Origin: Antedon bifida
Lineage: Eukaryota > Echinodermata > Crinoidea > Comatulida > Antedonidae
Assembly: GCA_963402885.1 (NCBI GenBank)
Contig: OY727103.1
Span: forward strand, 9,636,085 to 9,700,084
Length of the DNA: 64,000 nt
Reading direction: 5' to 3'
The notes below the pieces were generated by a model. That model was not told where the DNA came from, searched no databases, and worked only from the letters and a program-made list of their open reading frames with translations. A program made the position numbers and the translations under genes. Every line of letters begins with the position of its first letter. Within the stretch, counting starts at the first letter, position 1. Positions 10,323 through 57,203 of this stretch are shown one piece after another.

Positions 10323-10323
10323 G

Positions 10324-33818: not shown

Positions 33819-33993
33819 ATGATAATGGCAGACGAGATTGATTTAGCTACTCGGCCTGGATTGACTCTAACCCTTGATGATCTTGCTAGTATTGTTGAGA
33901 GGAATGGCCTAGGCGAAGCTGTCGCATTTATCAAGGAAAAGTTTGGCAATCAGAAAGAACTCTTGAGGCTCTTGCAGACACATGAGGATGATG
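33819..33993 (+). CDS. Pseudo-PMCA exon 1 (N-terminus)
   Basis: Start ATG at 33,819, or a second in-frame ATG at 33,825. Encodes LTLDDLASIVERNGLGEAV and IKEKFGNQKELLRLLQT, matching the PMCA N-terminal segment (T-M-E-E-L-R-S-L-M ... I-x-E-x-Y-G). Ends in phase 1 at GTAAAT. A three-codon upstream frame (ATG AGA TAA, 33,802-33,810) precedes the start. Confidence 0.85.
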
Positions 33994-36900
33994 GTAAATT
34001 GATGCATTTTATTAGTGAAAAGGTTCATCTGGATCTCTTACAGTATTTTATATGGTTTTCTTTTGTGATGATCCAAATAAACATGAACTCACAAGACTAA
34101 ACTGAGTTGATCAACCAGAAAAAGCTAGAGAATGAAACACACGTTTTTCGTTTTATTCAATTTATTTGTTGAATCATCAAAAAAGAAAATCCTAAATATT
34201 GATGCATTTTGTTTCAATGGATTATAAATTTCTAAAAAAATTATACAAACAAATAGATGACGAAAATCCTTTATAATATAACTCCAACTTTTTAACTCAA
34301 ACATTCAAAGACCTAGAATCTGTTCTAATATATTTAATATGTGCAATTAACTTTTAATTTTTTTTCTGTATGTTTAGTTGAAAACATACCGAGACATGAT
34401 CTATGAAAAGAAATAACGAATTATTGTACAATAAATTAATAAAAGCTAAGCATGTTTGTCGTATCAAACTTGGCTACCAATGGCACTTCCTAAAGTTAAG
34501 GAGTAGAATAACAATAAAGTTATAAGCAGAAAATGTAATTTATTTCCTTGTGATTCATTGCTGTTATCATATTTCCAGGCACTATGTTTTCATTAACAGT
34601 AACCTGACACAATTGTACATAATGGCACAAAAGAAGTGTATTCAATAAAGTATTTTAGATTTTAATGTATCTAGCTTTACAAACTTACCCTAACTAGGAC
34701 TACTATACTCATGCTAGCTCTAACCAGAACCTAGAGAGTACAGTAGATTGTCTATTCGGTAATTGTGTGTAGTTGCTGGCTTTGTCCAGGGTAAAGGTGT
34801 TTAATGAGTGTATGTGTCTATAGTGACTAGGTGTCAGTGAGTTCATGCAGGTAGGGGTCCAGGGTAAAGGTGTTTAGTGAGTAGGTGTCCAGAGGATAGA
34901 TGTCTAGTTAGTTTATAGGTATCAAGTGAGTTGTGCCTATGTGATAGGTGTCTATGGAACTGTCCCTAGACTACCTAGTATACAGTAATTGTACAGAGGT
35001 CCAGGGTATCTATTGAAGTCCATGGTATATATTGTCAAAAATGTGTAGTTGAATATTTCCAAGGCATTGCATAGTAAAATAAAATTTCTATACTATCATC
35101 AGTACTTATATCTATCAAGAGTAAACAAACACTTCTAACTGATGATTGATAGTGATATCGTTGTCTATGTTAAACTGTTTCATTATCATTAGTTCAAATC
35201 TACTTATTACAAGTAAACTGTGATAAAAACCTAATGTACTTAACTTGTGTGTATGTTTTATTTACATATTGATTCGAAGACTGATAGTAAACCAATCATA
35301 ATATAATTTTGAGCTTTGATTCAAGTATACTGCAGTTCTCCCAATTAGCTGGGTAAATGTTGCCTTTGGTGATTCGTGAGTCTTGAAGACTCAATCGTTT
35401 CGTTCTGTGTGAATTCATTAATTTTTTTTTAAATACATTTTTTTCATTTTATTGTTTGTTGTTAGGCAGGATAGTAAGATGCTCACATCATTATGACACT
35501 TGTGAATAGATAGCCAGCTTGTCTTAACAAGTTAGTGAAACAGTGTGATGATGTGAGTTTCTGTTTTCAGACTTTTTTTCTGTTGTCTTAGTCAATTTAT
35601 TCGATTTATTAGGCTTTTTCCTGGTTTATTTTTCATCAACTTTTTTCATTTTTACACTTGTTAATTGCATTATTAATATGTAAAGAAAAATGTTATCAAA
35701 TCAAATATTATGATCAGGGACACTCAGGCCAAGCAAGGAAATCAGCTAACCACACAATAAGTCATAAATACAGTTTGTTTTGTTTATTTAATTTCACTTT
35801 TATGGTAGAAGGTCATAGTACAGTACTACTACACAAGACAAGCAATCATGAATTAAAAAGTAGAAATTTAAAAAATGTTGACATGATAATTTTTTTTATT
35901 TATTATTGTATTTCTGAACAGGACACAAAATGACGTGACCTTAATTATGAATCACTTCCAGTGAATTGCTAATAATTTACATAAAAATAGTCCTTACTAT
36001 TTACATTAATATTGTATTGCAGGCAGCAGGACTGATCCATTATACAATAGTAATCCATGATCTTTTTAACTGTTTGGTAAACTTGTGTTGTCTTTCTAAA
36101 TTAAAAATAGAAAAAAGGAAAAATTTAAAAAAAAATGTTTTAAACTATTTGATGTGTGACAATTATTATTGCTTATCTGCACTTGGTGGATAAACCCTTG
36201 ATATTGTCAGAATCTTTTTTTTCTTCTATCTTATTCTTTCTTTCCATAAATTTTGTTGCAGCTGTATCTCTACCTCTTGTCAACCTGACATTGTTTAACT
36301 TATATTGACAAATTTAACGAATATTGACCTCTTACTGTACTGCAGTAAACTTTGATATGACTTTAGAGTCATGCAGAGTATGAAATTTTATTTCTGAACC
36401 AAAAAATAATTTTATAATGAAACTTTACAAAAGTATACTTCATAATATGGAGCAATTTTTGACATGATAAAAATAGTGTGCCACGCAAAAAATATATGCG
36501 CAACATTAATTTCTAATAAATTTCAGGTCATTTTGAGCATTTCAAAATTGTCTATTACTAATAATAGTTTGTGTTTTGCGCATACACTTGTGCGCATAGT
36601 AGCTCGTACAAAGTGTAGAAAAATGGTACCCATTTTTCTCCTATATTTTAATATGTTCTTTCTCAATCAATTCTCTTTCACATGCGTTACAAACATTTTT
36701 ATTATTATTATGTCATCATATCAAAAAATTGGAATAATGTGAGTTACCTAATTTCATACAGTATATTTCAATTGTTTACCCGAATGAAAAGTGACCCACA
36801 TAATTTAAACTTATTATGGAAGCTGTTGAATTCTATGAATTCATACAAATTTTGTCTATCCATCTGATGTCATGACGTCATCATATGGCCAGTTGAATTC

Positions 36901-39900
36901 AAAAAGTCATATTTTCATCTTTTTCGTAAAAGTTCATCGCATTTGTGGCATCTGCAAGGGAAACCAGACATAAGTCGGAATTTTCAAAATTGAGATTTCC
37001 ACAAATACTGAAACTACATAATCCAAGATTTAAAATGCTGAAAAAAAATATCTTAATACCATGTCTACTTCCAGAGATATCTCAGTCTAAAGTTTTGGTT
37101 CTTTACAATCAGTGTTTTAAGAAAAATGCTTTTAAAGTTAAGTAACAGGAAATTACAATAACAAAATAAACAGGGCGTCTAAGTTTACGCCTTAGCAAAA
37201 GGGTATTCTAATTGTTTTATTTCAATGAAACTTCGCACCTTCCTTAATTAACTATTGTTCTATTATTATGCAAAATTTCATTAAAATCAACTCAATGGAA
37301 CACTTTCATTTTAAGCATAAAACATGATAGGTTTTATGAAAATCATACATAATTTACACCATCTTTTTAACCAACATACTACACAAAATGTTAAAATGTA
37401 TCTATTTATTTGTCTCAAAATAGAAAAACACCAAGGTAATGTAAATAAATATTGTTTCAGCTATCATTTTCTGTAAAAATAAAAAAATGTAATTTTTCAG
37501 CCTTTTAATGTTTTTGGCTGTTTCTACAAATCTACAAATGCGACTTATGTCTGATTTCGCTTGCATGTGCCACATTTAAAAGAGAGCGCATCTCACTTTT
37601 ACGTGCCAAAAATAATTCAAATTTGTATTAATGCAATTATTTAGGTAATTATCTTCTAAAATGTTTATCTTCATGTTTGATGACGTCATCGTGTTAAAAA
37701 TTGGATTAAAAGATGGGTCTCGTAATTGCATCTATGCTACACTGTATATAACATAGTGTATTCCGTAAGTTCAAATCTAGTTAAAATTTAGAATTTAAAA
37801 AATTAAAATAATTCAGCTTGTATTCAATTCAAGATAAAATACAAAATAAAAGGGCATGATATAACTAATGATCATGTGACCATGATCTAGAATTTGAAAT
37901 AATGGAACCCTAGACTAGATAGATAGGAAATAAAGTTGGTTTTTCCCAAAATTTTGAGAATGGGTTGTGGAACCTTCCTTGGATTTGCATTTGTTCATTA
38001 TTGAGGTTGTGTTTTGACGTAAAATCAATGTAACTTAAATATTTAACTGCCATCGAATTCTAAATTTACCACAGAAACGTTCTTTGATAACTAATTAATA
38101 ACAAGGACTTCTACATCTCAATTAGCTTGTGTTTACAGTGCCCTAATTCTTCATGATGATGATGTTGCCATCACTGCTGAAAAGATCAATACACTTAAAG
38201 GCAGCCAATGTATCTGTGGAACCATACATTGGGCTAAGGCTCATGAAGGAGCTTCAGTCAGGGATCTTATCCGCACCAGCTGCCGCTGGTGGAGCAAGAG
38301 CCGGTGATGCACTGCAGAAGAAACGAAAGAAGAAGCCAAGAAAGAAGAGGAATCTGATGATGGTTGGTTGCCAAGAAGAAACATCTCTTTGGACTGAAAT
38401 TTACCCAGAAAGGTCATATTTCATGCTTGAGTGACTCCAGTCAAAATTGTACTGTAATGTTATTCCGGTTATCCCACGTGGCGACGAGACCCCTGTTGAC
38501 GAACTACAGTAGGAATAGCCAGTTTTATACACTGTTTTCCTTGTGCAACCATACAAATTATGACAACTAATTATGAATAATGATATTAAATCCAGCCGAT
38601 TAATCTGATTTTTTGTACAGAGGCTACATCCAAAAATCATCTTTTTAAGGTCATCTTGTCACTCAGGTTCTAGTTATTGTGTGTTTAATCGACTTGTGTT
38701 GTGTAGTTTAGTAGGTTTTTTTAAACAGCTGGTTTATCTCAAATTTAATACCCAGGAGGAGTGGCACACGACCATTACATGTGTAAGTGCAAACAAGCAA
38801 CGGAGATCTCATATCATATTTGTTTGTTTTTTCCCATATAGGAAATAATATTAAAACAATAATTAAGAAATAAAACTGTAAACCGAAACTATAATAGCTC
38901 AAGGCTTATTAAGTAAAGGTACTGTATCACAACAACATATTTGATCTGGTATTCATTTTCCTACGTCCCAGATTTTCATAACTATCCATGTTAGAACTCT
39001 CTCTTCGACACCCTCCCCTATTTTTTCTATCAAATGTCAACTTTACAGGCTAAACTCAAATGTTATATTATGTATTCCTATATTACTGTATTTATACAGT
39101 TTATTTTAATATTCAAAATTTGAAATTTAAAGTTGAATATATAAGGATAGAATATTATTTTTATTGTATTATTATTTTAAGGCTGTGTTTATGCAGCCAA
39201 AAATTAATCGATAAAAATCAGATAATTATCAGATAAATACAATAAGTTTTAACCTTCGACCTGAAGGATGAGTTGTGTTGGGTAAAAAATTAACCTATAA
39301 TTTTTTTATGGCTGCGGAAATGCAGCATGATTCCGAGAATCACATTGTGTGAGTGAATCATGTAGGCTCCGAGTGCAAATGAAGTAAATCTGACTTTTTT
39401 TTAAAATAGTAATTTTTAATTTCATGTTCATTTTGTTTGCATTATTTTCATTGTGGATTATAATAAATCCTAAATAAAAATTTTATAATTAAAATTGTTT
39501 AATCTTCTTATAGGAATTAGCCATCTTGTACAAGATGTGTTGAAACGTCAAGAACTATATGGGAATAACTCCTTGTATGAGGTAGAGGAAGCGGGTGTCC
39601 ACGGCAGCTTATGGAATATCATCAAGTCACAGCTGCTAAAGGAGTTGCGCCTCGTGCTGATTATGGTCCTTGCGGTTGTCTCTTTTGGTTTGTCTTTTGC
39701 TGAAAGTGATGTCATTAAATGTGAGTATAATTAACAAACTATAATTTAAAACTTTATACCTTTTAAAAAAATCTACAACAAGTGAATAATTATGGATATT
39801 AAAATTTAAACAAGAATATTCACAGCAAGATCTTAATTAAAATGTTGGGACTGGAATAGTGTCTGAGAATGAGATGCAAAATTGATTGGCACTTAATGTA

Positions 39901-42900
39901 CTTCTGCACCTATGATAATGATTCCTTAGGATCCGGGTCATGTTCACAGTAAGCTTAACCTACTGTAACCCTAAGATAGCCTCAAAGGTGCAAAAGTGCA
40001 TTAGCATCAACATAAAAAATACAGCAGATTGAATATGGATATGGATTTGAAATTAAATTTCTCACTTATGATAAAAAAATAAAATGTATTATTATATACA
40101 TAATACATAATACATAATATATACAGGTACAGTACTGCCTTTTCTTTTTTTAAATCCTTGATGGTAATTATATTTTTCTCTCAGGACTGTATTTGCTAGT
40201 CCGTGAGAAAAATATGATTATCTCAGAGGATCTCGAATGTTATATATTACACCTCAAAGTAGGCATCTGTAATCTAAATGGGTACAGTACTGCACCTTGA
40301 AAATAGAATACACTAACAGGTGCTTTACATTACAGAATCGTTTCTTATAGTCCACAAGCCGGCCCTAGTGTAGGGTTATCATCTTACTTACATCACTAAA
40401 GAATGACCATGTTCATAAGGGATAAATATTTTTAACAAACCAGAGCTACAGTAATAATACACATACTGTATCTCTACCAAAGTGCTCAAGGAAAACCTTT
40501 CAAAAAAATACAGTACAGTACCTCAAAATGTACAACTATTCCAAACTATTTTCCTGATGTAGGATTATGAAAATGCTTTAATAATCAAATACATTTTACT
40601 TTACAGTTTCCTTGTATTTAGAATTGGAAGAACGTAAAAGGGCTGGCTGGGTCGGAGCAATTTGTTTATGCTTACTCGCCATCTTCATCTTTATGTTTCA
40701 AGTTGTCAGCAATTATTTTCTTGAAGAACAGTATGCCATAACCCAAAGGAAGCGCAAACTATTTTCAATGGCGCAAGTTTACACTATACGTGGAAGCGCT
40801 GGAGCGTATCAGCCAAGAGACGAGATTGTTGTTGGTGATATTATTTACGTTAAATGTGGTATGTACTACTACTATGAATGCATTAAATTTACACAAATAA
40901 ATTGTAAACAATATTACCGTATGATAAGTATAGTCACACCTGGTTTAAAAATGTCTTGTGTGTGTGTTTAGCCCAGTAGGTAGGATGATGCTCAAGCATG
41001 GGATTGTATTCGGTATTGGAAGATGTTGCTCCTCTGGTAGCTGAAGAAGTTTCAATTAGAACATGTAAAAACCCATGGCAGCACCGGCGGGCTAGGGGCC
41101 GATGGCCCCGGAAGCTCTGGCGTTTTAGAGCATTTTAGGCATACAGAAATCTTGCAGTAATTTTCCTAAAGTGGTCACTAATGAATACAATTTTTGTACA
41201 TGATCTAAATATAACTTCAAAATCCAAAGGATAAATTGTAGCATAGAAAATATATGCGAACGTAGTAAAACGTACCCGACACACGGACTGGCCAAACGGT
41301 AGACAAGGGGGACAGAAGCTGTCTGTCTGTCCCCCTTGGTCAGTTGATAAGCGAAGAATAGACGGTAGACGTTTTACTATAATATTGAAGAGTTTGATCA
41401 AATATATTTTTTCCCTCAGAATGTGAGGAGGGTGGGGAGTGATTAAGAATTTGAAAACTGTTAATGCTTCTTCAATGTTTAAGCTTTAAAGAAAATGACT
41501 GCCTTTTCTTGAACCACTATTGTTTAGAGACTGGAACTTCAACTTTATCATGTGATTAACAATTGTTAAAAACTGAACTTAGTCCTGACTAAATACAAAC
41601 TGTTGTTTTCAGGGAGTACTGTTCCAGCTGATGGACTAATTATCTATAGTAGTAACGTAAAAGTGAATGAATACCGTGTGACAGGACGTGATTCCGTGGT
41701 TGACAAATCAGCAGATGGAGATGCTATCTTACTCAAAGGTATATCATTAATATTATGTTTAATCTTAAAAGTAACTACCAGCGCAACTATTTTAACATTT
41801 TGTGATATTGAAAAAATGTTTTTTTACATTTTTTTGTTGAATATGCCATTTTAATGTCACATAATAGTTATTAACTTTAACGAAAAATGGGACACAAAAA
41901 AAAATTATTTACCTGAGTGAAAAAAACTAATTTAAAGCAAAAAATTGTCAAATTGGCTGTCAGCTAATTGGTTTTTGGTTGAATTTAACAATTTATTTTA
42001 TCATTTTAAAAATTATTTTTTCCAGATTTACTTTGTTAAAACTACAAAATTGCCTATTCAAAATCTGATTTATTAATCTTTCATTTTTTCATGTTTTTGG
42101 GGGACAATACATCTTTAACTAATTATTTCTACAAAGGTTAGCATATCATTATATTGTCATTTATTTTAAAAAGAAATTAACATATGATTGCAATATTAGT
42201 ATTTTTACTTCTGTACACTTAAACTCAATACTTTTTTTCTTTACTAAAAATATTATGACATTGACAAGAATTTGTTTCGGCCAATAACCTTCAACTCATT
42301 ATCAGTAAAGTATGTAAAGTATACTTATTGCTTATTCTCCAAAATGTCTGCATGTGACTCAACGTGTGTCGTGGGATATTTCTATAATACTGTAAAAGCA
42401 ACTATGACATTTAGCATGAAACTTGGGTAATTTTTTAACATTTTGGTGTTTATTTAAAGTAAAAATGTCAGGGTGTACAATTTCATTTCTCTGTATTTTT
42501 ATGTTTAACATTTGTTATTCACATGGGAAATCTTATTACGAAGTTCATTTTAAATTTCATCTATTTCTACATCATTTTTTAAACCATTGACATTGTATGT
42601 TAATTGATGGAGTGAAGCACTTATAATGATTTAAAGATATTGTACTTAAGTTAAACTGTCCTCTCTGAGCTTCAGATAAATAAACATGTTTAGTGAGACA
42701 CAAAGCAGATGTGCATAGATTGAACATAAGACTTACAATATTGGGCGCATTTGATTTGAGAATTTTGAAAGACTACAGTTTTGAGAACTACAGTACTGTA
42801 TTGTATGTACAGTATTTGCTGTTGGGTATGTTCAACATTAAAGCCGATTTTCCACTAGGCAAATTTGTTCGCGCAAATAGAAGAGCATGCGTATCCATGT

Positions 42901-45900
42901 TTCTATCTTCCAAATCCCTATTCACACACGCATATTAATGTGATGTTTTCAAATTGGCCTAGTGGAAGGTTGGCTTTAGTAGTACATACTGTTATATAAT
43001 GAATACCATTCAAATAGAACAAGTATGCTAATTGTGAACACTGTATTCAAGAAAAAATTGATGTGAATGCAACCCATGTTACCGTAAATCTTCTAATAGT
43101 AACTCACACTCTAATAGTAACCCTCTTCTAATAGTAACCCACCTTCTAATAGTAACCCACCTTATAAGTCAATCTATAATAATAACCCACTACTCTAATA
43201 GTAACCCACAGGGTTAATATTAGAGTCACAAAAACTATTGACAAAATGACATTATGAAGACTGGTCGTTTATGATGCAGCCATATTTTGAAAATAAGGAG
43301 ATAATGCATGTTGATCTCGGGAGTGGGGGAGGATTGAGTGTTTTTGAGTTTATAAAATAAAGTTAGAGTTCAAACAAATTTGTTTATTCGTACTGTTTTA
43401 TTATTTTGCTATGATTTGCTGACCGGAATAGTTGGGGTGGGTTACTATTTTCAAGTGCCTAATTTACGATTAGTAATAGTAACCCACTACTCTAATAGTA
43501 ACCCCTTTCTAATAGTAACCCACCCTAAAAAACAATCAAAGAATAATTAGAAGATTTATGGTATTACTATACTTTCCCTGTTGGCAGTCGTGTCAAAAGG
43601 ATACAATAAACATGTTTATCTTTGTAGGATCAAAAATAATTGATGGACATGCACGAATGGTGGTACTGCAAGTTGGTGTCCACACTAAGCTTGGTAAGAC
43701 TCCGCAAGGAGGAGTCATTAATGGTGCTTTTACTCCTAATTATCAATTTGCACGCTCTTCTGATGCACCTGACTCAGGGGGTAAGATCATGCCTGCACGT
43801 TTATTAACTTACATATTAATGACACCAGATTATCAATTACTTTATCCAGACTAAAGCCTATTTTTCACTATACAAATTAGTCACACAAATCCAATGTTTT
43901 CCACTACTAGAGTGAATAGGTGCAATTTCATTTCCATCACGTATCTGCAACATTTACACACATTTAAGATTAAAATGGAGAAAGAAAACATAAATAAATA
44001 TACACTTCAAATTTTAGAAAGATAATATAACATTTATTTATAAAGACTACATAAATCATCCTATAAATGTTTATTATTACAAATGAAAGTGAATTAAAAG
44101 TTAATCTACGACCACTTTTCTTTGACTTGAAAATTGTGCCTAACCTATCAACTCATCTCTCTGAACGGTATTGAATGACGGCCTCTGGAAATTCCACATT
44201 TGATTTTTAAAATTATTTTTCGACATAATTCATTAAATATTTGGTTTTCAAACTTTTCGTTCCATCTTCGTAGCAAGATATTTGGTGCAAAATTCAGACG
44301 GATCGGATGTCGCACAGCGGAGTGCATAGTGGACACTTTTTGTGTTTGCCTTTTATTTATAGATTACTTACATTTACCAAGTGTTATACACACTATACAG
44401 TAGTTGGTGTCATTAATATGTTTATTTTTTTTAAATTCATATTTGCACAAATTTTGTTTGAGCATTTTATTATAAGACTATTATCATTTCTTTTTAATTC
44501 TAGTTCTTGATTATGATATGAATAATTTAACAATTATTTTTTCAATATTCATATTTTTGTTATAATAAAAAGAATTTAACTTTAATACAGTTTACTTTAA
44601 TGTGCAGTAGTTAGTCACTATTCTCATTTAAATATTGAATGATTTGATACAATATTATATTGTAATTTCTTTTTTTGCATGTGTTTTCAATTATTAAATT
44701 AAAGGTGATTGAGGTGGTTGGCTTTGTTTATAAAATTAATTATTTATTAACCAAAATGAGAGACCATCTGTTTATGAATACAGTTAGTGAACATACACAC
44801 AAATACCTGTGTTAATAATGCATGCATATCATAAAATACTATTTATAGAGATTTTATTTGGAAGAGAATCGATTGGCATTTATAATGTAGAGCTTGGTTC
44901 CCACTATACAATGCAACGACGTAGACGCAATGCAAGTGTGTTGTCCAATCATAAGCGAGAGTTTGAAAGATCCATCGTATCGTGATTGGTCATATTACTA
45001 ATGGTGGGCCTATATCCTTGTGTTGGGAGCCAAGCTTTAGGTGCCATATTAAAAAATCCAAAGACATGAAGCTGATTATGAGAATCAATTATGTTAATAA
45101 TTATAATCGCATGTATTAATAACAATTTTAAAATTAAACATTCACATGCCATTTGATAGATTTAAGTGTCATTTTTAAAATATCATTATTAATTTTTAAA
45201 TGTGTTATCATCGTCATCATTTTAATCATCACTGTTATCATTGAGTAAATAAACCGAAAGAGGAAATATCAGATTTCTACATTATGTTAAATAGGGAAGA
45301 GAATAAATTACTATTAGTTGAGATTATCAAAAGATAGTTGTTCTCTTTGTATTCACTTCCCAATGTCTACTACCAACATATAAGAACATTCAGTCTATGT
45401 CGTGCCTAACTTACCTGGATAAACCGACAATAGCCCATGCTCTCCAAATGGAGGGCTTAAATACAAAAAGAGTTATTATTATTTTTCATAACTTTCTTAG
45501 ACATTGCAAGATCTGCCAATGATATTTATGTAAATATGCCTGGTAACACTAGTGAGGTTGCAACACAATCATCACCTCCTGTGTACTCACCACTTGGTAG
45601 CCAACGCCTTAGGAACAAGAAGGATAAAAAAAGTGTCCTGACGCAAGATTTGGAAATCATCTCAAAATATGTGTTAATAGCAGGTAATCACAATCATTAA
45701 TACTGAATATTTGTCAGAACATTTTTTGGAATTTTTTATTTTACCAAACAAATGTGATGCGCATGGTTTATTTATAGTTATTTTGTATCAACATTTTTTT
45801 AAATCAAATTTTAAAATTCTTCTCAAAGAAATGAGACAAATTTGAATCTATCCCTATCCATCAAGCACACTTGTTAGTCTACAGGTTTTGAGGATTAAAG

Positions 45901-48900
45901 TCCATAGATTTGAATGCCACCCAAGAACAACTGGCAAATATTTTTTTCAATTATTCTTAAATTCCTGATGAGAGACCTGTTTTTTGTTCCGAGATGTCCC
46001 AAGTTGTTACTGCACGCTTGTATTGCCCTGGTGTTAAACTGACAAATCAAATAACTCGTAATTATGCTTTCTCCCGAGATTTCTCACGGTTTGTCTATGC
46101 GTGTAAGAAAATGTATACTAATAGGGAGATCAAAGTTGTAATAATTTATGCAGATAAGTCAGAACATTGTTTTCTAATTTAATACAATGATTGATTTGTA
46201 ATTGCCAGCTATTGCCCTGTGTACAATTATTGGTCTGGTTCTGATTATTAACTATTGCTACCAAACATTCATTGCTGATGATGAGAGCTGGGATATTACA
46301 TACTTGAAGGATATAGTAGACCTGATCATTGTCACCGTCACTGTGTTCACAATCACCTACCCATCATCTTTACCTTCCATCTACCAGCACATCTGCAAAC
46401 AGTCGGCTCATGTAAGATTTGTTTTTGTTATCATAGTTACCGTATTTATTCAAATAAACGCCCCGATTTGAATACACACCTCCTTGGAATAAATGACCCC
46501 ATTGAACACCCGTTTTGAATAAACGCCCCCTACTCCCAGGGACGTTTATTCTTTCCTTTAATAAAACGACCTGCCACATGCATATACACACAATATTGTT
46601 TTGAAACACATTTCTATTTGTAGTAGAATTCATTGACTTCCATGATCTATAATTTACCAAGCATTTTGAAACAATTGATATTAATTTGTGTTGTAATTTT
46701 TTATATCTAGGGGGAATTCATTTGATTATACATGCTACAATAATTATTACACAGTACTGAATTTGATGTAATAGATTTAAAATTTGTTTTTTAATTATTT
46801 AAAAAAAAATCACAATTAATAATTTCACTGTAATATTAAATTAGATAATAACCCAATAATTAATATATTGTTTGAAGGGTTGCATGGCGTATTCAAATGT
46901 TGATATAAGTTTGCGGTACACCATGTATGTTAGTTCTGAAAAGAAATGTTGAGTTTCTCAACGTTTTGATCAATATGCTTTGATCGTCCTCAAGAAACTA
47001 CGTGTACCGCAAACTTATATCAACCCAATAATTACATTTTGTGAATTTTTTATTTGTGAAATTGTATAGGAGATTCGACATGATCAAATATTTGTCTGTA
47101 ACAATGAAGCCTATGGAATTATGGGTAATATTACCACACTTTTAATGAACAAAACTGGAGTGGTCACAGAAAACTACATGCGTGTTGAGGGCATCTTTTT
47201 ATTTAACGAGTTGTTTCATGTTCGCTGGCCGGATAAACAAACTAATCTTAACACAAGACTGAAATCAATGACGCATTCTTCAGAAGTGACCAATTTACTT
47301 CTAGAAGGAATGGCAGTGAATACAGATTACACAGCTCAAATTATACAAGTAAATATATCTATTTTTAATTATAAAATAAAATGTATGTCTTTTCATAAGA
47401 TGTTTTTTTTTAGTTGAATACACTACAGTAGAATTCCTATTTTAATGTGTTCGTTTAATATGGGCGGATATTTTTAAGTATATTCCCCTCATTTCACATT
47501 TAAGTGTCCCTCTAGGGTGTTCCCTGAATGAGATAGTCCTAAATTAAGGTTTTACTTTATAAGCTGTTGAAAGAAGAGCTTTACAATTTATGACTTATTT
47601 ACTGTATTTATCCCACTCTAAAAAATAGCTTATGTTTGTGCAGATTTAAATAAATGTCTGCCAATTTCCCAAAACATTTTAACTTAAGTTCATTAATGAA
47701 TTTTTACTGTATTTTCCGCGAGTGTTAGATTCCCAAAGTTGCTCGGCCTATGGTAGTACTAGACGTACAGCATACAGTTCCTTGTATTTAAACTTCATAA
47801 GCCTTAACAAAATTGCAAAAAAAAAAAACTCCCTAGATTTTGGCGATTTGGGAGCAAACATACATTTTTTTTCCCCAATACATTTTCCCCATACATGATG
47901 ACATGCATTGCTAACTTGATATACATCAAGTAGTATATTAGCATCACAGAAGCTGGTTGAACCATTAAACGTTGATCATATTCTTCTTTATTCACAAACT
48001 AGATACCTGGCGAGAATCATGGTATTCTTCAACATATTGGAGACAGAATAGACTGCGCTCTACTGGAGCTTGTGGAGATCCTGGGTGGGCATTATAGAGC
48101 ATTGCGGGACATGAATCCAGAGGAGAAGGTGATGCGTGTCTATCCTTTTAACACGAGTAGGAAGATGATGTGTAGTGTCATTGGTAAGGAAGAATTGAAC
48201 AGAAACAGAGTCTATTGCAAAGGAGCAGCAGAGCGAGTACTTAAAAGGTTTGCAGCTTTTTATGTATATTGAGGGACCATGTAAAAATGAATCTACTGCA
48301 GTTACTGCAGGAAATACATTTTGTTTATCTGATTATTAACAGTAGCAAGATTTGTTTGAGTAACCATTTGAAGTAAAAAAAAAATTAACCATTAATTGAC
48401 TGCCTCAGACGTATACATAGAAACAAACATACATTACTACAGTAAAAGTTATTAAATCGTTATTATCTATTGCTTAAATAAATGTTGTCAAAATCAAATC
48501 AAAATATGTAAATTTGGAATAACTGTTAAAATGGTTTAAAAATTAGATTTTACTAAACAGTAATAATTATGTATTTAATATTTTATTATCTTAAAAGGTG
48601 CTCATTTTACCTGGACACGGATGGTGTAGCCTGCCCTTTGGACACTGCTACTCAATCACACTTTGCATCGCAAATAACAGAGATGTCTAAATCGAAGCTT
48701 CGCACGATATGTTTAGCATATCGAGATATGCCCATCGATCAGACAGAAGACAGCGTGGATTTGTCTCGTGAGGATGATGTCTTATCAAAGCTGACTTGCA
48801 TTGCTTTGTTAGGGATTTCAGATCGTGTTCGTCCAAAGGTAGGAAAAACAACATTATATCCTAAATAAAATAGCACAGTTGCCTATTATGTTATAAAAGA

Positions 48901-51900
48901 ACTTCATTACGAAATGCAATGTGCATATACTGGCTGGTATAATCAAGTTTTCCAGAAACTCTAGTATTCTTGTGCATTTTTTAAATGCTAAAAAAATCTT
49001 GGATCTTTTGGACCTCAAGAAAAGTCAGGGTTTGGTAAAGATTCCAGTTTTCATAACGTCCAGTATTGGAAGACATACAGTATGTCAACAATACTGTATA
49101 TTGCTTTAAGGTTAGTGATTTTAACATTGTGGTGACAGACAGACTTGGTAAAAAAAAATTGTTTTTCTCCTAATCTCCTTGCAAAAAATTGTACTATAAA
49201 ATCTAATATCTAATAATATCTAACTTTTTTTAGTAAAATATATTCCCATTCATTAGTAAAAAAAATATCCCTGATCAAATAATTCTTGCTTTAAAGAAGT
49301 ACATATAGTAAATGTATAAAGGTGTAATGTCCCCAAAAACATGAAACATAAAGATTAAATAAAGTCAGCCTTTTTTTTTATCCTATTATGCGACATTAAA
49401 ATGGCAGGGGAAAAATATAATACTTTACATTTTTTTAAATATATTTTTTCTTTATTTTTTAAGGCTGCTAAGTATGTTAAGGATTTACAGCGTAGTGGGA
49501 TCAAGATTACCATGGTAACAGGAGATGACCTCCAGACAGCAGGCGCTGTAGCTGCAGAGTCAGGAATCATCCGCAGTCATAAAGATCTCTGTCTGGATTC
49601 TCAAGTATTTAATCATAAAATCCGTGGAATTGAAATGGTAAATTTTAATTCTTGAATGTAGTGTGAATGTGATTTTGTTAAAGGTGTGGGAGATAGACTT
49701 CAGGTAATTACTCTTAAATGTAGTGTGAATGTGACTTTGGTAAAGGTATGGGAGATAGACTCGAGGTAAATACTCTGAATGTAGTGTGAATGTGACTCTG
49801 TTAAAGGTATGGGAGATAGACTCGAGGTAATTACTCTTGAATGTAGTGTGAATGTGACTTTGTTAAAGGTGTGGGAGATAGACTCGAGGTAAATACTCTT
49901 GAATGTAGTGTGAATGTGACTCTGTTAAAGGTGTGGGAGATAGACTCGAGGTAAATACTTTTGTGGAGCACTGTGGTGCAGTGGTTAGAGCATTGGACGT
50001 GCAATCAAGAGGTTGTCGGTTCAAGCCCTGGCTCGGTCACTGCAGTGTTGAGTCCTTGAGCAAGATTCTTTATCCACATTGTTCCTCCCCACCCAGGTGA
50101 TAGAAATGGGTACCGGTATGTAAAAAATACTGGGAAGGTAAATCAGACTCGTTTGTGCGGGAGGAGTGGCGTACCCCCCACAAACATACACACTTAGTGG
50201 AGTCTGGCCCAAACGCTAAAGAAATGGAGATGGGCACCACGGCCGTTAGCATTAGCTTAGGTTTCGACTTTACCTTAAATACTCTTAATGTAGTGCGAGT
50301 GTGATTTTGTTGGATGTGTGGCATCATGGGTGTCTAGATAACTCAGATATATCCAAGTTTTTTAGATCTAATCTGAGTTTTCTAGAGATTTCAGGATCTA
50401 TAGTCTTCTATAGTGTCATTCTGCTCTTAGAAAACTCTTCCTAAATGTGTGCCCTATTTATTTAAAGTTTCTCATGTTTTATTTTCAGACTTCACCATCT
50501 GCTTCATCTATCATGTATGGGGATGAATCTCAAATGGTAAGCAATTGCTTTAAAGGCCAGGTGCGGGCAAAAAATTTCTATTGATCATACATTCCAATAA
50601 TTATCGATCTATAGTTTCCCCTATGTTTCATAATTTTTGGGATTTTATTTGTGTTACACGAGCTTGTTGAAAATAAGCACTTTCTTATCAGTGGGGGGAT
50701 AGTTCAAATTACACAGTAAAATCTCTTCTTTTGTACACAAATTTTGTAAATAGAGAGGCATTTTAAAAAGCTATGAAAAATAAACGGTGTGGTAAAAAAT
50801 GTTATCAGATGACTAAATATAAGTAATATAACTTGAATTTTACATTTCTGATATTTTTATTCAACTTCAGATTTTTATTTTCATGCTGTAGCAAAAATTA
50901 TCCACCGTATATCCACCATCTTTTTTCACCTTCTAGGGAGTCACCAGACATGTTATTACATTAGGTTAAACTACCTAACTACTGAAAAAAAAGTCTTCCT
51001 GGCTTTTACGGCAGAATTTTGCCAAAATTTGTATTTGACCATATTAAGGGAAATTCATGTTTTTTTGTCTTGATTTCTTTTACAAATATATGATTTATGT
51101 ACAATTAACCAGATATTATATTTAAAATTCATGCCTGTCCCTGAGCTTTAAAATAGATTATAAAAGGTTTCATTTCTTATACCCTTTTCACACCTGCAAA
51201 ATTCAACTTGTAACAAGTTGTAACCAGGTTTACATAGTGCGAAAAAACACTGATAAGATGCCTGTTTTTTGTTCTAAGATGTCCCAAGTTGTTGCCCTGC
51301 GTGCATGTGTATTGCTCTGGTATTATAACTGACCAATCATAATCAAATAGCGTGCAACTATGCTTTTCTCCTGAGATTTTTCACTATTCACGCGTATGCA
51401 TGTATGAAAACGTGTAATAAATCAGGAGAGCAAACCTGGTTACAAAATTTATGCAGATTTGAAAAGGATATTAGATGATAGATTTGAAAAATAAATTGTG
51501 ATTGTTATTATTAATTATTATTTAGATTAAAGATGATGAATTTCACAAGACATGGCCATCTCTAGGTGTACTAGGTGGGGCCCATCCAGATGACAAACAA
51601 TTACTTGCTAAAGGCATATCTGCAGCTCCAAAGAATCTTCAACCGCAACTGGTTGCAGTAACTGGACGCTACATAGGGGACGAGGATACCCTAGCAGAAG
51701 CTGATTTAGGCATTGCTCTTGTAAGCCCTCCTCATTTCTTTTTCTATGAAATAAAAATTCATGTCTCCAGACATTTTCATCGGATTTACGTGATTTTAAG
51801 CAATTTTGTATGTCATGAGAGTTATATAGTAAATGTTATACTCTTTGACATTTTTTTGTTTAGGGAAATATTGGTTCTGTAGAAGCTAAAACGGCTGCTG

Positions 51901-54900
51901 ACGTCATATTAAAAGATGACAGTATTTATAGTATTCGACAGGCCATCATGTGGGGACGCAATATCTGGGATGGTGTTGTCAAGTTCGTCCAATCCCTGTT
52001 AGTCAGGGGTATGATAACATCACTTGTTGCCTTTATCGGAGCTTGTACTTTTTCAGTAAGTAGATTTTGTATTCTTTGGATTATAGACTTGTTGAGATAT
52101 TTTAGTGTTTTTACTTTTGCAACCATTGTCGCACTGTGAGGGTTATATTTAAATAGTTTATTTCCGATTTCCTGAGACAATAGTGTGATGATCAAAGATT
52201 GATAAAAACCATCTAATTAGTTGAAATGGTCTCACCCACTTGAAATGGTCTCACCCACTCTTCATGATGATATACATACTGTTCAATCAATTAACTGTAC
52301 TGTTAATTAGTACTGTACTGTTTAATTAATACTGTACTGTTTAATTAATACTGTACTGTTTAATTAATACTGTACTGTTTAATTAATACTGTACTGTTTA
52401 ATTAATAAAGTTCATACACCATTGCTTCATTCACCATATAAATTCTTCTGTTGGTATGCAATTCTAATGTGAATTCTGTATTTATAAATTGTCATAACTG
52501 CGATCTACTTCAGGTTCCCTTAAAACTTGTTATACCTCCAGAAAAATGGTTGCGAAACCCCTTGTGTAACCACTCATAGCCACTCGACCCAATTTTGTTG
52601 TAGTTGTAACTATGTATTACAAACTAAATATTTTTAATTATATGTTTTAGGTGGTTAATATATCTTTTATGCTTTTAGCTTTATGCTTTACTGTATAATA
52701 AATTAGAAATTTTAAATATTTTTTTTAATTTGTTTTTGTAGAATAGCCCAATCAGAGCCATCCAAGTATTGTGGTCATATCTATTAGTTAATGTATCCAT
52801 CATCTTATTGGCTGATAAACCAACACGTCACATCTTGAAATACAAAGCTGCTGGTTCAGATAATCACATAGTTTCACCTTTGTTTGTTGTTACAACTATT
52901 TCTCATTTTATCTACCAATTAGCTGTCATTCTTGTCTTCATATATAAAGGTAAGACTCCCATTATACTTTCTATTTCTTTTTACATGAATTAGCCTTCAC
53001 GGTACTCAAACCTGTTCACAACTTGTATTTTTATCATTTATCAATTTTTCTTGAAGTTAGGTTCTTTATTCTTTTCAGTTTATTAGTTTACCATAAATTA
53101 GATTTTATTTGTATGCTTATAACACTTAACAATTTCAATAAAATAAACTGTGCTGTTGCACAACAAAGACCACTATGTACACTTGAAAAACTGTTGTCAC
53201 TGTGATTGTGAAGAGGTGTTGCACACATTTGTTAATAATTAATTCAATTAAGATTATTACAATTATTTATGGTTTGATTTTGTACATGTATCTCTATTTA
53301 CAGTACATCATTGCATGCAATTATAATTGTTTTTCTTCAAAAGTATATAAAAGCATAAATTTAATACAAATAGATTTACAACAATTGAATAGTATTGTTT
53401 GTATTTCATTGACAGGTAGACCAGCTGAGTGGTTTAGGTACAAACAAATATGTGTATGTACAACATAACACTACAGTTAGACTGATCGCTAGGTGGTTAA
53501 TTATTGAAGAATAGTATTATGTTTTTAATGTTCTAATTATAATAATCTATTTCTAGGTGCCGACTTCTTTGACATTGATGATGGCCAAGAACGAAGTCCA
53601 TCTACATTTCCTTCTCAACACATGACTATGGTTTTCAATGTCTTTATCTTGATGCAAATTTTTAATCAATTGAATGAACGCAAAGTTCACAGTCAGCAGC
53701 AGGTGTATGATGGTCTTTTGCAGACGAGATCGCTGGTATACGTAGGCGAGGTGAGAACTTTTTTTTTATAATAACTCATTGAGCATAGTGACCAAGCGGT
53801 TAAGGCAGACCATGCTTAAATTTTGATGCTCTTTTAGACCTTAGTTCTAGTTGTAGAACAAGTCTTTTTGGGTAATGACTTAAAATTGGAGGTCCAATAT
53901 ACATATATGGTTCATTTTAATGAACCCAATGCACGAAGAGTTACCCATGTACTTCTATTTTAGCCCCTATCATTCATGGTACTTGCCAGTGGTGGTCCAA
54001 TTCCAACTTCAATGAGTCCCATTTCCTACGTTAAGATAAATTTGAAAAAAATTTAATGTAAAAATAAATACTATATGGTCTTAAAACTGTGAAAAATAAA
54101 TTCATTCTAATAACATAAGCGGCCCGCTATAAATCCCAACATTGATTGATATTTTATTATTGCTTTTTTCTCTGATTCACCCACTTTCGATCGATTGGCA
54201 AAACAAAAAATCGAATTGGAAATACCGAAAAACAAGACAATTAATGCAGCAACTAGATAAAATTAAATTTGCTGATTGGAACTAAATGCTAGATGCTAAA
54301 GATGGAGTGGAAAAGCAATTTAATTTTTTTTCTTTTTAGTGACATTTTCAAATAATTTGTCTGTAAGTTATGCTAGTACTAAGCTGTCACAGATGATTAG
54401 CATGCATTATTTTACTTTGAAAACAATTTCAGGATGCATATAACTCTATTCTTTCCTACTGCCATTAAAATGTTATATATTTGTTGGTCGTCATTAAGTT
54501 TGATATCTTGCTGTATGGTTTTAAAAATGTAAATGTAATCATTGCTGATATCACAATCAACACTGAATCTCTTCTCCTATTATTGTTTGTATTTCAACTG
54601 AGCTTAGCTGTAGCTTGGTGGTTAACATGCTTGCCTCCAATCCAATCCTGACCTACAGTAGTTACAGGATTGTAGTTGTCCCAGGTCTTTCAAATCCACT
54701 CCCTAAGCCTCAAATAAAGCCCCAACATAAGCCATGGCCCAAAGTGCACCACAAGTAATTTGACCAATCATCATGACATGATGGATTAAGTAACCATACA
54801 CACAGATTATTGCATTGGCTGCCTCATAAATATCTAAATTTACATAAAATAATATATAATTGCAATAAAACAAATGTAGTTGCTGCAACAATAACTGCAG

Positions 54901-55136
54901 TAGAATAATTTTGACTTGATTTGTTAGTTAATTTTAGCATTTTTACCAATAATGTTGACTTTTCTTTTCAGATTTGTTGTCAGTTGTTAATTATCCAATT
55001 CAGTAACTATGGTTTTGGTTGTGAAGCACTTGACTTAGACCAGTGGTTGTGGTGCTTTGCGCTTGGTATTGGTACCGTTTTGTGGCACCAAATTGTTCTT
55101 CTCTCCTACAAACTCATCATCCTGATGAAATCATGA
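33819..55136 (+). CDS. PMCA-like P-type ATPase lacking catalytic residues
   Basis: Seventeen exons with GT/AG junctions and consistent phases give 1,079 residues that follow plasma-membrane Ca2+-ATPase (ATP2B) end to end: N-terminal helix region, M1-M2, A domain, M3-M4, P/N domains, M5-M10. Family-specific words persist (VYPFNTSRKMMCSVI, LRTICLAYRDM, IMWGRNIWDGVVKFVQ, GADFFDIDDGQ, DQWLW). Active residues are replaced: phospho-Asp of DKTGT is Asn (MNKTGVVTENYM); TGES is TGRD; TGDGTND is TGRYIGDED; M4 PEG is PSS; M6 Asn and Asp are Tyr and Asn. The nucleotide-site KGAAE and MVTGD are kept. The protein stops right after M10, without the calmodulin-binding tail. It should not pump Ca2+; a scaffold or dominant partner of a true pump is an inference. 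The fully open frame argues against a pseudogene. Exons are listed separately. Confidence 0.92.
36939..37578. repeat. Inverted repeat pair, ~38-base arms
   Basis: Left arm 36,939-36,977 (GCATTTGTGGCATCTGCAAG, then GACATAAGTCG) and right arm 37,541-37,578 (CGACTTATGTCTGATTTCGC, then GTGCCACATTTA) are reverse complements with a few mismatches. GACGTCATCA at 36,875 and GATGACGTCATC at about 37,680 extend the symmetry outward. No coding frame between. Probably a non-autonomous DNA element or the two arms of one family inserted head-to-head. Confidence 0.7.
38104..38397 (+). pseudogene. RPLP1-ps: Processed pseudogene of ribosomal protein P1 (RPLP1)
   Basis: An intronless copy of the acidic ribosomal stalk protein P1 in three frames. 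First frame: SQLACVYSALILHDDDVAIT and AEKINTLK (P1 start MASVSELACIYSALILHDD). Then, one frame over, AANVSVEPY, then WAKAHEGASVRDLI (P1: WPxLFAKALxGxxVxDLI), the alanine-rich hinge, and EETKEEAKKEEESDDG (P1 acidic tail EEKKEEAKKEEESDDDMGFG). The start ATG is AGG, there are at least two frameshifts and the conserved DDMGFGLFD end is lost. Ribosomal protein mRNAs are frequent sources of processed copies made by LINE machinery. No poly(A) tract remains, so the copy is not recent. Confidence 0.85.
39181..39326. mobile_element. Short MITE with GGCTG..TGCAGCC ends
   Basis: 146 bases. Left end GGCTGTGTTTATGCAGCCAA; right end, reverse-complemented, GCTGCATTTCCGCAGCCATA. No coding capacity; in intron 1. 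Confidence 0.6.
39514..39720 (+). CDS. Pseudo-PMCA exon 2 (M1)
   Basis: Acceptor CTTCTTATAG, donor GTGAGT, phase 1 to 1. Encodes LKRQELYGNNSLYEVEEAG (PMCA: R..FGxNxIPPKKPK) and the first membrane segment LRLVLIMVLAVVSFGLSF. Confidence 0.92.
39721..40606 (+). other. Intron 2 of the pseudo-PMCA gene
   Basis: Holds a small hairpin repeat at 40,165-40,220 and otherwise AT-rich sequence. Confidence 0.6.
40165..40220. repeat. Perfect-looking short hairpin
   Basis: TAATTATATTTTTCTCTCAG then GACT pairs with AGTCCGTGAGAAAAATATGA then TTA across a ~10-base loop. Arms of about 23 bases, two mismatches. Confidence 0.75.
40607..40858 (+). CDS. Pseudo-PMCA exon 3 (M2 and A-domain start)
   Basis: Encodes LEERKRAGWVGAICLCLLAI FIFMFQVV-type M2, split from the A-domain start (VYTIRGSAGAYQPRDEIVVG, then DIIYVKC), matching PMCA V-x-R-x-G-x-x-x-Q-x-P-x-x-E-I-V-V-G-D-I. 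Phase 1 at both ends. Confidence 0.92.
40859..41612 (+). other. Intron 3 of the pseudo-PMCA gene
   Basis: Around 41,085-41,140 a GC-richer patch (GCACCGGCGGGCTAGG, then GCCCCGGAAGCTCTGG) looks like a dispersed-repeat fragment. 41,270-41,390 contains an imperfect palindrome around GGGGGACAGAAGCTGTCTGT, a repeat hairpin. Confidence 0.5.
41613..41738 (+). CDS. Pseudo-PMCA exon 4 (A-domain loop)
   Basis: Encodes GSTVPADGLIIYSSNVKVNE and YRVTGRDSVVDKSADGDAIL. In PMCA the matching loop is DESSLTGESD; here the dephosphorylation Glu is Arg (codon CGT at 41,687-41,689). VPADG is kept. Confidence 0.92.
42838..42978. mobile_element. MITE, TTTCCACTAGGC-type ends
   Basis: Left end TAAAGCCGATTTTCCACTAG, right end (reverse-complemented) TAAAGCCAACCTTCCACTAG. 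141 bases. A second, solitary end (TAAAGCCTATTTTTCACTAT) sits at about 43,852. Confidence 0.75.
43081..43563. mobile_element. Element with TCTAATAGTAACCCAC subrepeats
   Basis: Ends ACCGTAAATCTTCTAATAGT and, reverse-complemented, ACCATAAATCTTCTAATTAT form a terminal inverted repeat. Both arms are filled with the ~15-base word TCTAATAGTAACCCAC in direct orientation. No coding frame. Confidence 0.65.
43628..43780 (+). CDS. Pseudo-PMCA exon 5 (A-domain end)
   Basis: Encodes GSKIIDGHARMVVLQVGVHT then KLGK, matching PMCA [20 protein letters not shown], then a family-variable linker. Phase 1 to 1; donor GTAAGA. Confidence 0.92.
43781..45500 (+). other. Intron 5 of the pseudo-PMCA gene
   Basis: Holds the MITE at 44,891-45,035 and a solitary MITE end at 43,852. 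Otherwise AT-rich. Confidence 0.6.
44891..45035. mobile_element. MITE, AGCTTGGTTCCCAC family, copy 1
   Basis: Left end AGCTTGGTTCCCACTATACA, right end (reverse-complemented) AGCTTGGCTCCCAACA. Same family as 55,928-56,070, sharing the interior GAGAGTTTG..AGATCCATC and GTGATTGGTCA. Confidence 0.8.
45501..45683 (+). CDS. Pseudo-PMCA exon 6 (A-M3 linker)
   Basis: Encodes a Ser/Pro-rich loop (EVATQSSPPVYSPLGSQRLR), a basic KNKKDKK-like stretch (NKKDKKSVLTQDLEIISKYV) and the start of M3. In PMCA this loop binds phospholipid and carries the A-splice site; here it is similar in place but not in sequence. Confidence 0.88.
45966..46165. mobile_element. MITE fragment related to 51,183-51,467
   Basis: Shares GCCTGTTTTTTGTTC.GAGATGTCCCAAGTTGTT-type words, CAACTATGCTTT(T)CTC.GAGATTT and ATTTATGCAGAT with the complete copy in intron 12. 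Left end missing. Confidence 0.7.
46209..46411 (+). CDS. Pseudo-PMCA exon 7 (M3-M4)
   Basis: Encodes M3 (AIALCTIIGLVLIINYCY) and M4 (DLIIVTVTVFTITYPSSLPS). PMCA M4 carries VAVPEGLPLA with the Ca2+-liganding Glu; here it is ITYPSSLPS, so the ligand is lost (codons 46,361-46,369). Ends in phase 0. Confidence 0.92.
46412..47069 (+). other. Intron 7 of the pseudo-PMCA gene
   Basis: Contains a dispersed repeat around 46,439-46,555 (CCGTATTTATTCAAATAAAC, then two weaker AATAAACGCCCC copies and an inverted GGGACGTTTATT) and a complete GTTGATATAA-type MITE at 46,870-47,024. Confidence 0.7.
46870..47024. mobile_element. MITE with GTTGATATAA arms, copy 3
   Basis: Hairpin arms 46,899-46,927 and 46,998-47,024 (GTTGATATAAGTTTGCGGTA / TACCGCAAACTTATATCAAC). 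The loop has its own small palindrome GTTGAGTTTCTCAAC and GATCAATATGCTTTGATC. The homology with copy 1 extends left to TTTGAAGGGTTGCATGGCG. Confidence 0.88.
47070..47348 (+). CDS. Pseudo-PMCA exon 8 (phosphorylation site)
   Basis: 93 codons, phase 0 to 0. Encodes CNNEAYGIMGNITTLLMNKT then GVVTENYMRV; PMCA has DACETMGNATAICSDKTGT LTxNxMTV. The phosphorylated Asp is Asn (codon AAC at 47,148-47,150) and the T-L-T after it is V-V-T. The surrounding fold-defining residues are kept. Confidence 0.93.
47349..48002 (+). other. Intron 8 of the pseudo-PMCA gene
   Basis: AT-rich, no element recognised with confidence. Confidence 0.5.
48003..48247 (+). CDS. Pseudo-PMCA exon 9 (N domain)
   Basis: Encodes GDRIDCALLELVEILGGHYR (PMCA: GNKTECALLGFVxDL), VMRVYPFNTSRKMMCSVI and VYCKGAAERVLKR. 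KGAAE corresponds to the KGASE nucleotide-pocket motif with its Lys kept. Ends in phase 2. Confidence 0.93.
48598..48838 (+). CDS. Pseudo-PMCA exon 10 (N to P domain)
   Basis: Encodes ITEMSKSKLRTICLAYRDM (PMCA: IExMACDGLRTICIAYRD) and LTCIALLGISDRVRPK. The PMCA hinge word DPVRPEV is DRVRPK: the Pro is Arg, and several residues after it are missing. Confidence 0.92.
49464..49637 (+). CDS. Pseudo-PMCA exon 11 (P domain)
   Basis: 58 codons, phase 0 to 0. Encodes LQRSGIKITMVTGDDLQTAG and AVAAESGII, matching PMCA [20 protein letters not shown]. The TGD of the P domain is kept here. Confidence 0.93.
49653..49962. repeat. ~63-bp minisatellite, about five units
   Basis: Unit words GAATGTAGTGTGAATGTGAC, GTTAAAGGTGTGGGAGATAG and ACTCGAGGTAAATACTCTT repeat head to tail. 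Part of a sixth unit lies beyond the SINE at 50,276-50,315. Confidence 0.92.
49963..50275 (+). mobile_element. tRNA-derived SINE
   Basis: 313 bases. A perfect RNA polymerase III A box TGGTGCAGTGG (49,974-49,984) and B box GGTTCAAGCCC (50,018-50,028) lie 34 bases apart at the left end, in a tRNA-like head. Flanking 11-base duplications TAAATACTTTT (49,952-49,962) and TAAATACTCTT (50,276-50,286) differ at one base. The host sequence is a minisatellite unit, so the insertion point is unambiguous. The body carries no protein. Likely moved by a LINE partner. Confidence 0.9.
50489..50536 (+). CDS. Pseudo-PMCA exon 12 (16 codons)
   Basis: Small phase-0 exon TSPSASSIMYGDESQM between acceptor ATTTTCAG and donor GTAAGC. 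No strong PMCA counterpart; it sits in the loop where PMCA has RIRNEKGEIEQE. Serine-rich, a candidate for regulated or cassette splicing since its removal keeps frame. Confidence 0.7.
50537..51525 (+). other. Intron 12 of the pseudo-PMCA gene
   Basis: AT-rich, with a complete MITE at 51,183-51,467. Confidence 0.6.
51183..51467. mobile_element. MITE with CCTTTTCA..CTGCA ends
   Basis: 285 bases. Left end CCTTTTCACACCTGCAAAAT, right end (reverse-complemented) CCTTTTCAAATCTGCATAAA. Interior carries TGTTTTTTGTTCTAAGATGT, shared with 45,966-46,165. Confidence 0.8.
51526..51720 (+). CDS. Pseudo-PMCA exon 13 (P-domain hinge)
   Basis: 65 codons, phase 0 to 0. Encodes WPSLGVLGGAHPDDKQLLAK (PMCA: [20 protein letters not shown]) and LVAVTGRYIGDEDTLAEADL (PMCA: [20 protein letters not shown]). 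The Mg2+-binding Asp/Asn/Asp set of the hinge is gone. Confidence 0.93.
51864..52055 (+). CDS. Pseudo-PMCA exon 14 (P end and M5)
   Basis: Encodes AKTAADVILKDDSIYSIRQA, IMWGRNIWDGVVKFVQSLLV and M5 RGMITSLVAFIGACTFS (PMCA: VIVAFTGACITQ). 64 codons, phase 0. Confidence 0.93.
52056..52741 (+). other. Intron 14 of the pseudo-PMCA gene
   Basis: Carries a ~20-base minisatellite at 52,276-52,410; the remainder is AT-rich. Confidence 0.65.
52276..52410. repeat. 20-bp minisatellite (ACTGTACTGTTTAATTAAT)
   Basis: About six near-identical head-to-tail units of ACTGTACTGTTTAATTAAT. AT-rich with the self-complementary TTAATTAA in each unit. Confidence 0.92.
52742..52949 (+). CDS. Pseudo-PMCA exon 15 (M6-M7)
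   Basis: Encodes SPIRAIQVLWSYLLVNVSII then LLADKPTRHILKYKAAG (PMCA: [20 protein letters not shown] then LALATEPPTEALLRRKPYG). PMCA's Ca2+-site Asn and Asp of M6 are Tyr (52,778-52,780) and Asn (52,790-52,792). M7 is FVVTTISHFIYQLAVILVFI. Phase 0 to 1. Confidence 0.93.
53557..53750 (+). CDS. Pseudo-PMCA exon 16 (M8)
   Basis: Encodes GADFFDIDDGQ, then PSTFPSQHMTMVFNVFILMQ and IFNQLNERKVHSQQQVYDGL (PMCA: GEKFFDIDSGR.. [36 protein letters not shown]). Very close match over the M7-M8 loop and M8. Confidence 0.94.
53783..54010 (+). mobile_element. SINE-like repeat, tRNA-Leu/Ser-type head
   Basis: AGTGACCAAGCGGTTAAGGC matches the D-arm and A box of tRNA-Leu/Ser; a degraded B box (AGTTCTAGTTG) follows about 50 bases later. 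Old copy; boundaries uncertain. Confidence 0.4.
54600..54830 (+). mobile_element. Possible second SINE, degraded
   Basis: TAGCTTGGTGGTTAACATGC resembles an A-box region of a tRNA-derived SINE. No good B box. Confidence 0.25.
54972..55136 (+). CDS. Pseudo-PMCA exon 17 (M9-M10, C-terminus)
   Basis: Encodes CCQLLIIQFSNYGFGCEALD then LDQWLWCFALGIGTVLWHQI (PMCA: QIIIVQFGGKPFSCxxL then xQWLWSIFLGxGxLLWGQLI). Ends KLIILMKS and TGA, immediately after M10. True PMCAs continue for 70-150 residues with the calmodulin-binding autoinhibitory tail. Confidence 0.94.
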   Translation: MCCQLLIIQFSNYGFGCEALDLDQWLWCFALGIGTVLWHQIVLLSYKLIILMKS

Positions 55137-57200: not shown

Positions 57201-57203
57201 AAC

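Follow-up and report, generated by a model that had tools for sequence, protein, structure and literature searches.

The window analysed here, a stretch of 64,000 nucleotides from the crinoid Antedon bifida, carries a gene of 17 exons on the forward strand (33819-55136) that encodes a relative of the P2B-type pump PMCA (ATP2B). We refer to it as the pseudo-pump gene, because of the losses described below. When the gene was rebuilt from the raw sequence, the exon phases matched throughout, all 16 introns were of the GT-AG type, and the spliced coding sequence came to 3,240 nt including the terminal stop, yielding 1,079 amino acids with neither internal stops nor frameshifts (the two alternative frames of the same spliced sequence contain 71 and 95 stops). 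The coordinates, strand, exon count, phases, and 1,079 codons given by the first-pass annotation were all reproduced by this reassembly. A tblastn search of the 64-kb window found no second PMCA copy.

Several other features share the window. A large exon with a NACHT domain (13041-15380, forward strand, E 1e-21), with repeated units of ~177 nt in its 3' part, lies downstream of a DED-like exon (10281-10835, forward strand) that scores below the Pfam cut-off; together, the two are predicted to belong to an NLR-type immune gene. A single 488-aa open reading frame on the reverse strand (18845-20311) contains a protein kinase domain together with an extended stretch of serines. Upstream of the pseudo-pump gene, two 16-nt minisatellite arrays (30888-31084 and 32793-32977) stand 1.7 kb apart and have related units that run in opposite directions (AAGTCGCCCCATCGCA / TGGGGCGACTTTGCGA), and downstream of the gene follows a 38-nt minisatellite of ~23 copies with 91% matches (57202-58071). 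Intron 11 holds a 62/123-nt tandem array (49650-49963, forward strand), after which a segment at ~49963-50300 resembles, by eye only, a tRNA-derived SINE (GTGGTGCAGTGGTTAGAGCA ... GGTTCAAGCCC).

Gene model and kinship with PMCA

The exon assembly can be followed along the PMCA fold. Exon 1 (33819-33993) supplies the start ATG and the N-terminal segment, exon 2 (39514-39720) runs from the N-terminus to M1, and exon 3 (40607-40858) encodes M2 and the start of the A domain, which continues in exon 4 (41613-41738). Exon 5 (43628-43780) covers the end of the A domain and the A-M3 linker. Its donor is ambiguous (43780/81 or 43693/94), the phase being 1 either way, and sits in the variable A-M3 loop. 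The linker and M3 follow in exon 6 (45501-45683), M3-M4 in exon 7 (46209-46411), the start of the P domain and the N domain in exon 8 (47070-47348), and more of the N domain in exon 9 (48003-48247), whose donor is weak (AG/GTTTGC). Exon 10 (48598-48838) completes the N domain and returns to the P domain, to which exon 11 (49464-49637) and exon 13 (51526-51720) also belong. The P domain ends in exon 14 (51864-52055), which also encodes M5, and the remaining helices are divided among exon 15 (52742-52949; M6-M7), exon 16 (53557-53750; the extracellular M7-M8 loop, M8, and the start of M9), and exon 17 (54972-55136; M9-M10 and the stop codon). The reading frame closes directly after M10, leaving out the calmodulin-binding autoinhibitory tail; a tblastn search with a tail query gave no match in the 8.9 kb downstream. 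A candidate polyadenylation signal (AATAAA, 55424-55429) lies 288 nt past the stop.

Exon 12 (50489-50536) stands apart, as its 48 nt encode 16 residues without a PMCA counterpart. Leaving it out closes the PMCA alignment and does not change the phase. Its splice signals are good, so it is possibly a cassette exon; it may also be spurious. The model backed by homology is thus a predicted protein of 1,063 amino acids from 16 exons, with exon 12 omitted.

Kinship with PMCA was examined with phmmer against the PDB. Residues 17-1068 of the pseudo-pump match mouse PMCA2 (9gsd) in a single stretch (E = 2.8e-164), followed by human PMCA1 (8e-163) and the plant pump ACA8 (7e-93). The layout of animal PMCA is therefore preserved from the N-terminus through M10, just as had been claimed beforehand. 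This single stretch also speaks against an artefact in which unrelated exons were strung together by the assembly or the gene model, an explanation that could draw on exon 12 and the end of exon 5, both of which are without homology support. We consider such an artefact, together with its variant in which RNA editing restores the active site (see below), extremely unlikely.

The identity of the pseudo-pump amounts to 33% with PMCA2, 29% with ACA8, and 23% with bacterial pumps. A maximum-likelihood tree groups it with PMCA1 and PMCA2 (support 99/97), leaving ACA8 and the prokaryotic pumps outside, on an end branch of 6.36 versus ~0.1 for PMCA1/2; for animal PMCAs this tree comprised PMCA1 and PMCA2, and long branches can be misplaced, as the programme itself warned. 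The placement agrees with the identity ranking and with the animal-type M7-M8 loop. The curated score of the equivalog model TIGR01517 is not reached (416.8 vs 507.05), so the protein is not to be annotated as a PMCA pump. With the pseudo-pump protein as the query, no relatives were found in viral and prokaryotic contigs, and a P2B alignment yielded no viral relatives, while the same alignment did retrieve active prokaryotic pumps.

Residues lost and residues kept

Residues are numbered here according to mouse PMCA2, and their roles in the catalytic centre are those established for SERCA. The phosphorylated Asp is replaced by Asn (D454N, codon AAC) in exon 8, where DKTGT has become NKTGV with the additional change T458V (MNKTGVV, 47145-47165). 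In exon 4, the dephosphorylation loop reads VTGRDSV (41678-41698), TGES having turned into TGRD, with Arg in place of the dephosphorylating Glu (E244R). In exon 13, GDGTND has become GRYIGD (51658-51690), which exchanges the Mg2+-binding Asp for Arg (D775R) and brings in N778G. R745, which like N778 lies on the phosphate side of the nucleotide site, is a Gly (R745G).

The losses extend to the residues whose roles in Ca2+ and lipid binding are known from PMCA2 structures (PMC12488499). None of the three Ca2+ side-chain ligands survives: E412S in M4, where PEGLP reads PSSLP (TYPSSLP, 46355-46375, exon 7), and N869Y and D873N in M6, which is also two residues shorter (52772-52798, exon 15). The same holds for all four tested PtdIns(4,5)P2 residues, namely K347I and Q351Y (exon 6) and Q837L and N841G (51993-52013, exon 14). 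As these residues are gone, the suggestion that the protein might sense Ca2+ or lipid has become unlikely, and we rejected sensing through the known sites.

SERCA and Na,K-ATPase reportedly can no longer be phosphorylated once the Asp of the phosphorylation site is changed to Asn (PMC13322241), and judged by its residues the pseudo-pump is almost certainly incapable of pumping. It is a homologue of an enzyme from which essential catalytic residues have disappeared, which is what makes a pseudoenzyme. The idea that a complete protein of the PMCA family has lost its active site was borne out by the full collinearity combined with NKTGV, TGRD, and GRYIGD. The stronger wording that every hallmark is substituted holds for the phosphorylation and Ca2+ residues, but not for TGD (kept in exon 11, where TGDN reads TGDD, 49515-49535), KGA (48213-48233) and the N-domain Phe/Lys (48141-48164) in exon 9, K751, K455, and D779. 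RNA editing was considered as well, since AAC to GAC is a change of the A-to-I type that could restore the Asp in the transcript. However, only the Asn codon is restorable in this way: A-to-I editing cannot undo TGRD, PSSLP, GRYIGD, and the M6 changes together, and a pump restored by editing was rejected.

Could the chemistry have changed rather than ceased? A fast-evolving, tissue-restricted (e.g., germ-line) paralogue might act as an ATP-driven or passive transporter with another residue or substrate; the branch length of 6.36 suits such a history, and ERMA/TMEM94, a non-canonical P-type-like Mg2+ transporter of the ER, reportedly operates without TGES or the canonical GDGVND loop (PMC13322241), both of which are replaced in the pseudo-pump too. 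ERMA, however, retains its Asp (DKQGI), and Asp to Asn abolishes its uptake (PMC13322241), whereas the pseudo-pump is devoid of this Asp, of the Mg2+-coordinating Asp, and of all Ca2+ side-chain ligands. ERMA, the nearest case encountered, belongs to another subfamily and displays the opposite combination of losses: its nucleotide pocket is closed (PMC13322241), whereas the pseudo-pump has kept the N-domain pocket residues. On balance, changed chemistry strikes us as very improbable.

As a yardstick for what has been kept, we used the best-scoring 80 of 586 prokaryotic P2B relatives, which were fetched by patterns that do not include DKTGT. One of these patterns, WVNLIMD, contains the M6 ligands, so that the conservation of M6 ligands in this set is selected. 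DKTGT and TGD are kept in 80/80 of these best-scoring relatives. From 40 non-redundant prokaryotic pumps plus PMCA2 and ACA8, we defined 151 columns that are invariant at a level of at least 97%. The pseudo-pump keeps 87 of these (58%), whereas active pumps, each left out in turn, keep 98.4% on average and 87% at minimum. Nonetheless, it resembles PMCA2 overall nearly as much as the bacterial pumps do (identity of 33% vs 36%).

The retained columns are spread unevenly, with 14/16 in the N domain, 13/15 in the A domain, 38/63 in the P domain, and 2/10 in M4. Of the nucleotide contacts, the pseudo-pump retains T456, F557, K562, K580, R625, TGD, and K751 unchanged and has Asp in place of E525. 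Counting the lost R745, the nucleotide pocket keeps 9/11 columns versus 78/140 elsewhere; with P = 0.12, nucleotide binding by the pseudo-pump is put forward here as a hypothesis and not as a result. As to how tightly SERCA mutants with Asn for Asp bind nucleotide, the literature searched offered nothing usable.

Uneven constraint and maintenance of the frame

The same unevenness appears in the identity to PMCA2, with the plant pump ACA8, rather than an invertebrate PMCA, serving as the baseline. In M4, the DKTGT segment (P1), and M6, the pseudo-pump scores 0.25, 0.35, and 0.35, compared with 0.67, 0.72, and 0.79 for ACA8. In the N domain, the extracellular M7-M8 loop, and M10, on the other hand, it reaches 0.35, 0.37, and 0.43, where ACA8 shows 0.29, 0.00, and 0.21. 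The contrast between the core and the N/M7-M8/M10 group gives z = 5.85, a value for which columns were treated as independent and regions were grouped after inspection. Parts that are the most conserved in pumps thus lie at or below the least conserved ones, which is not the picture of uniform decay; constraint was lifted from the catalytic and transport core but persisted in the other regions.

Two of the retained parts have a known partner. Neuroplastin contacts PMCA2 at the M7-M8 loop, at M10, and at the cytosolic M8-M9 loop (PMC12488499), of which the last is poorly kept in the pseudo-pump (3/12). The earlier idea that a dead copy could hold PMCA's partners fits the kept extracellular loop and M10. 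Such a copy might also be a regulatory subunit or a dominant inhibitor, a dead paralogue that pairs with active PMCA or competes for its partners and so lowers Ca2+ extrusion in particular cells. A full PMCA fold with kept partner-facing surfaces around a dead core, and with no autoinhibitory tail of its own, would suit that role. PMCA2-neuroplastin, however, is described as a heterodimer (PMC12488499), and no pump-pump contact is visible in the sequence; we regard this role as unlikely, although among the alternatives it is the foremost.

The 17 exons showed none of the lesions that mark a pseudogene, such as stop codons, frameshifts, or disrupted splice sites, and a decayed pseudogene was rejected for that reason. 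A local contrast is offered by intron 1, where acidic ribosomal protein P1 has left a processed pseudogene, free of introns and frame-shifted (~38095-38434, forward strand; 2lbf, E 3e-12 with two frames joined), which shows the very decay that is absent from the pseudo-pump gene.

How long the frame has been guarded can be estimated on the premise that columns frozen in active pumps change, in the main, only once catalysis is lost. As many as 64 of the 151 formerly frozen columns (42%) have changed. When the same extent of codon change was simulated under neutrality (40 runs, intron composition of the locus), ~29 stops arose on average and 20 at minimum, versus none observed, so the frame was probably guarded through the greater part of the period after catalysis ended. 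Frameshifts and splice damage lie outside this simulation and would both add to the expected lesions. A neutral stretch beyond ~0.02 substitutions/site, which leaves zero stops in 4% of runs, is rejected at about the 4% level.

A shorter neutral stretch is what a recently dead gene would call for, that is, a diverged paralogue whose function ceased so lately that stops have yet to accumulate. Over 1,079 codons, ~0.01-0.02 neutral substitutions/site pass stop-free with P 0.16 to 0.04, so that a loss of function dating back no more than ~2% of neutral change is compatible with zero stops, and the weak donor of exon 9 would fit this reading. The 64 changed columns, however, need far longer, and under uniform relaxation M4 and M6 would not have fallen behind the N domain. 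Recent death is therefore improbable in our judgement, though less so than changed chemistry.

The word "maintained" in the first-pass annotation is supported indirectly, by the zero stops, frameshifts, and broken splice sites as well as by the uneven domain conservation; as far as sequence can tell, the stop-codon argument speaks for constraint over most of the post-catalytic branch and not for the present day. Overall, the locus probably holds a maintained P2B pseudo-pump, which appears to have been retained for some other job. The fuller reading, an intact paralogue of animal PMCA that became a P2B pseudoenzyme and whose frame selection kept open after catalysis had ended, is the best explanation we can offer, with a probability of roughly 55%.

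A non-cycling PMCA and its possible meaning

Pseudokinases and pseudophosphatases are well known, and pseudoenzymes as such are thus a known kind. In the open-access literature searched, no description was found of a full-length pseudoenzyme among the P-type ATPases. With PMCA (TIGR01517; 9gsd, 6a69), the pseudo-pump shares the ten membrane helices, the A, P, and N domains, the extracellular M7-M8 loop, and M10; unlike PMCA, it has no phosphorylatable Asp, TGE, Ca2+ side-chain ligands, PtdIns(4,5)P2 determinants, or C-terminal tail. Plant ACA8 (8qmp) is likewise P2B, but has every catalytic and Ca2+ residue in place and, with 46% identity, stands closer to PMCA2 than the pseudo-pump does. A precedent for a pump-independent role of a P-type ATPase has been proposed for CATP-1 of C. 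elegans, in which D409 of a DKTGT-type motif is retained and was lost in engineered mutants only (PMC11631496), whereas the pseudo-pump has lost its Asp naturally.

If the pseudo-pump folds like PMCA once expressed, it would form no aspartyl-phosphate intermediate, undergo no dephosphorylation, and bind no transported Ca2+. The kept N-domain pocket might bind ATP or ADP without turnover, and the protein, residing in the membrane without cycling, would serve as a scaffold or decoy. Via the kept M7-M8 loop and M10, it may occupy the Ig-type subunits (homologues of neuroplastin/basigin) with which active PMCA gets to the surface and stays there. Of the mechanisms weighed, this nucleotide-binding, non-cycling one appears the likeliest, though it remains tentative. 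Similarly tentative is the broader proposal of a conserved animal family of PMCA-derived P-type pseudo-ATPases, whose members hold nucleotide without turning it over and, by taking up the partners of PMCA, regulate either Ca2+ signalling or adhesion proteins of the Ig type. The first-pass annotation had already spoken of a candidate for an undescribed protein family; the present analysis covers a single copy.

The structural and transport roles of PMCA have so far been approached mainly via engineered mutants. A PMCA that is non-cycling by nature would allow the structural roles (subunit binding, trafficking, and adhesion) to be told apart from transport, and would reveal which parts of the fold selection keeps once pumping is no longer needed.
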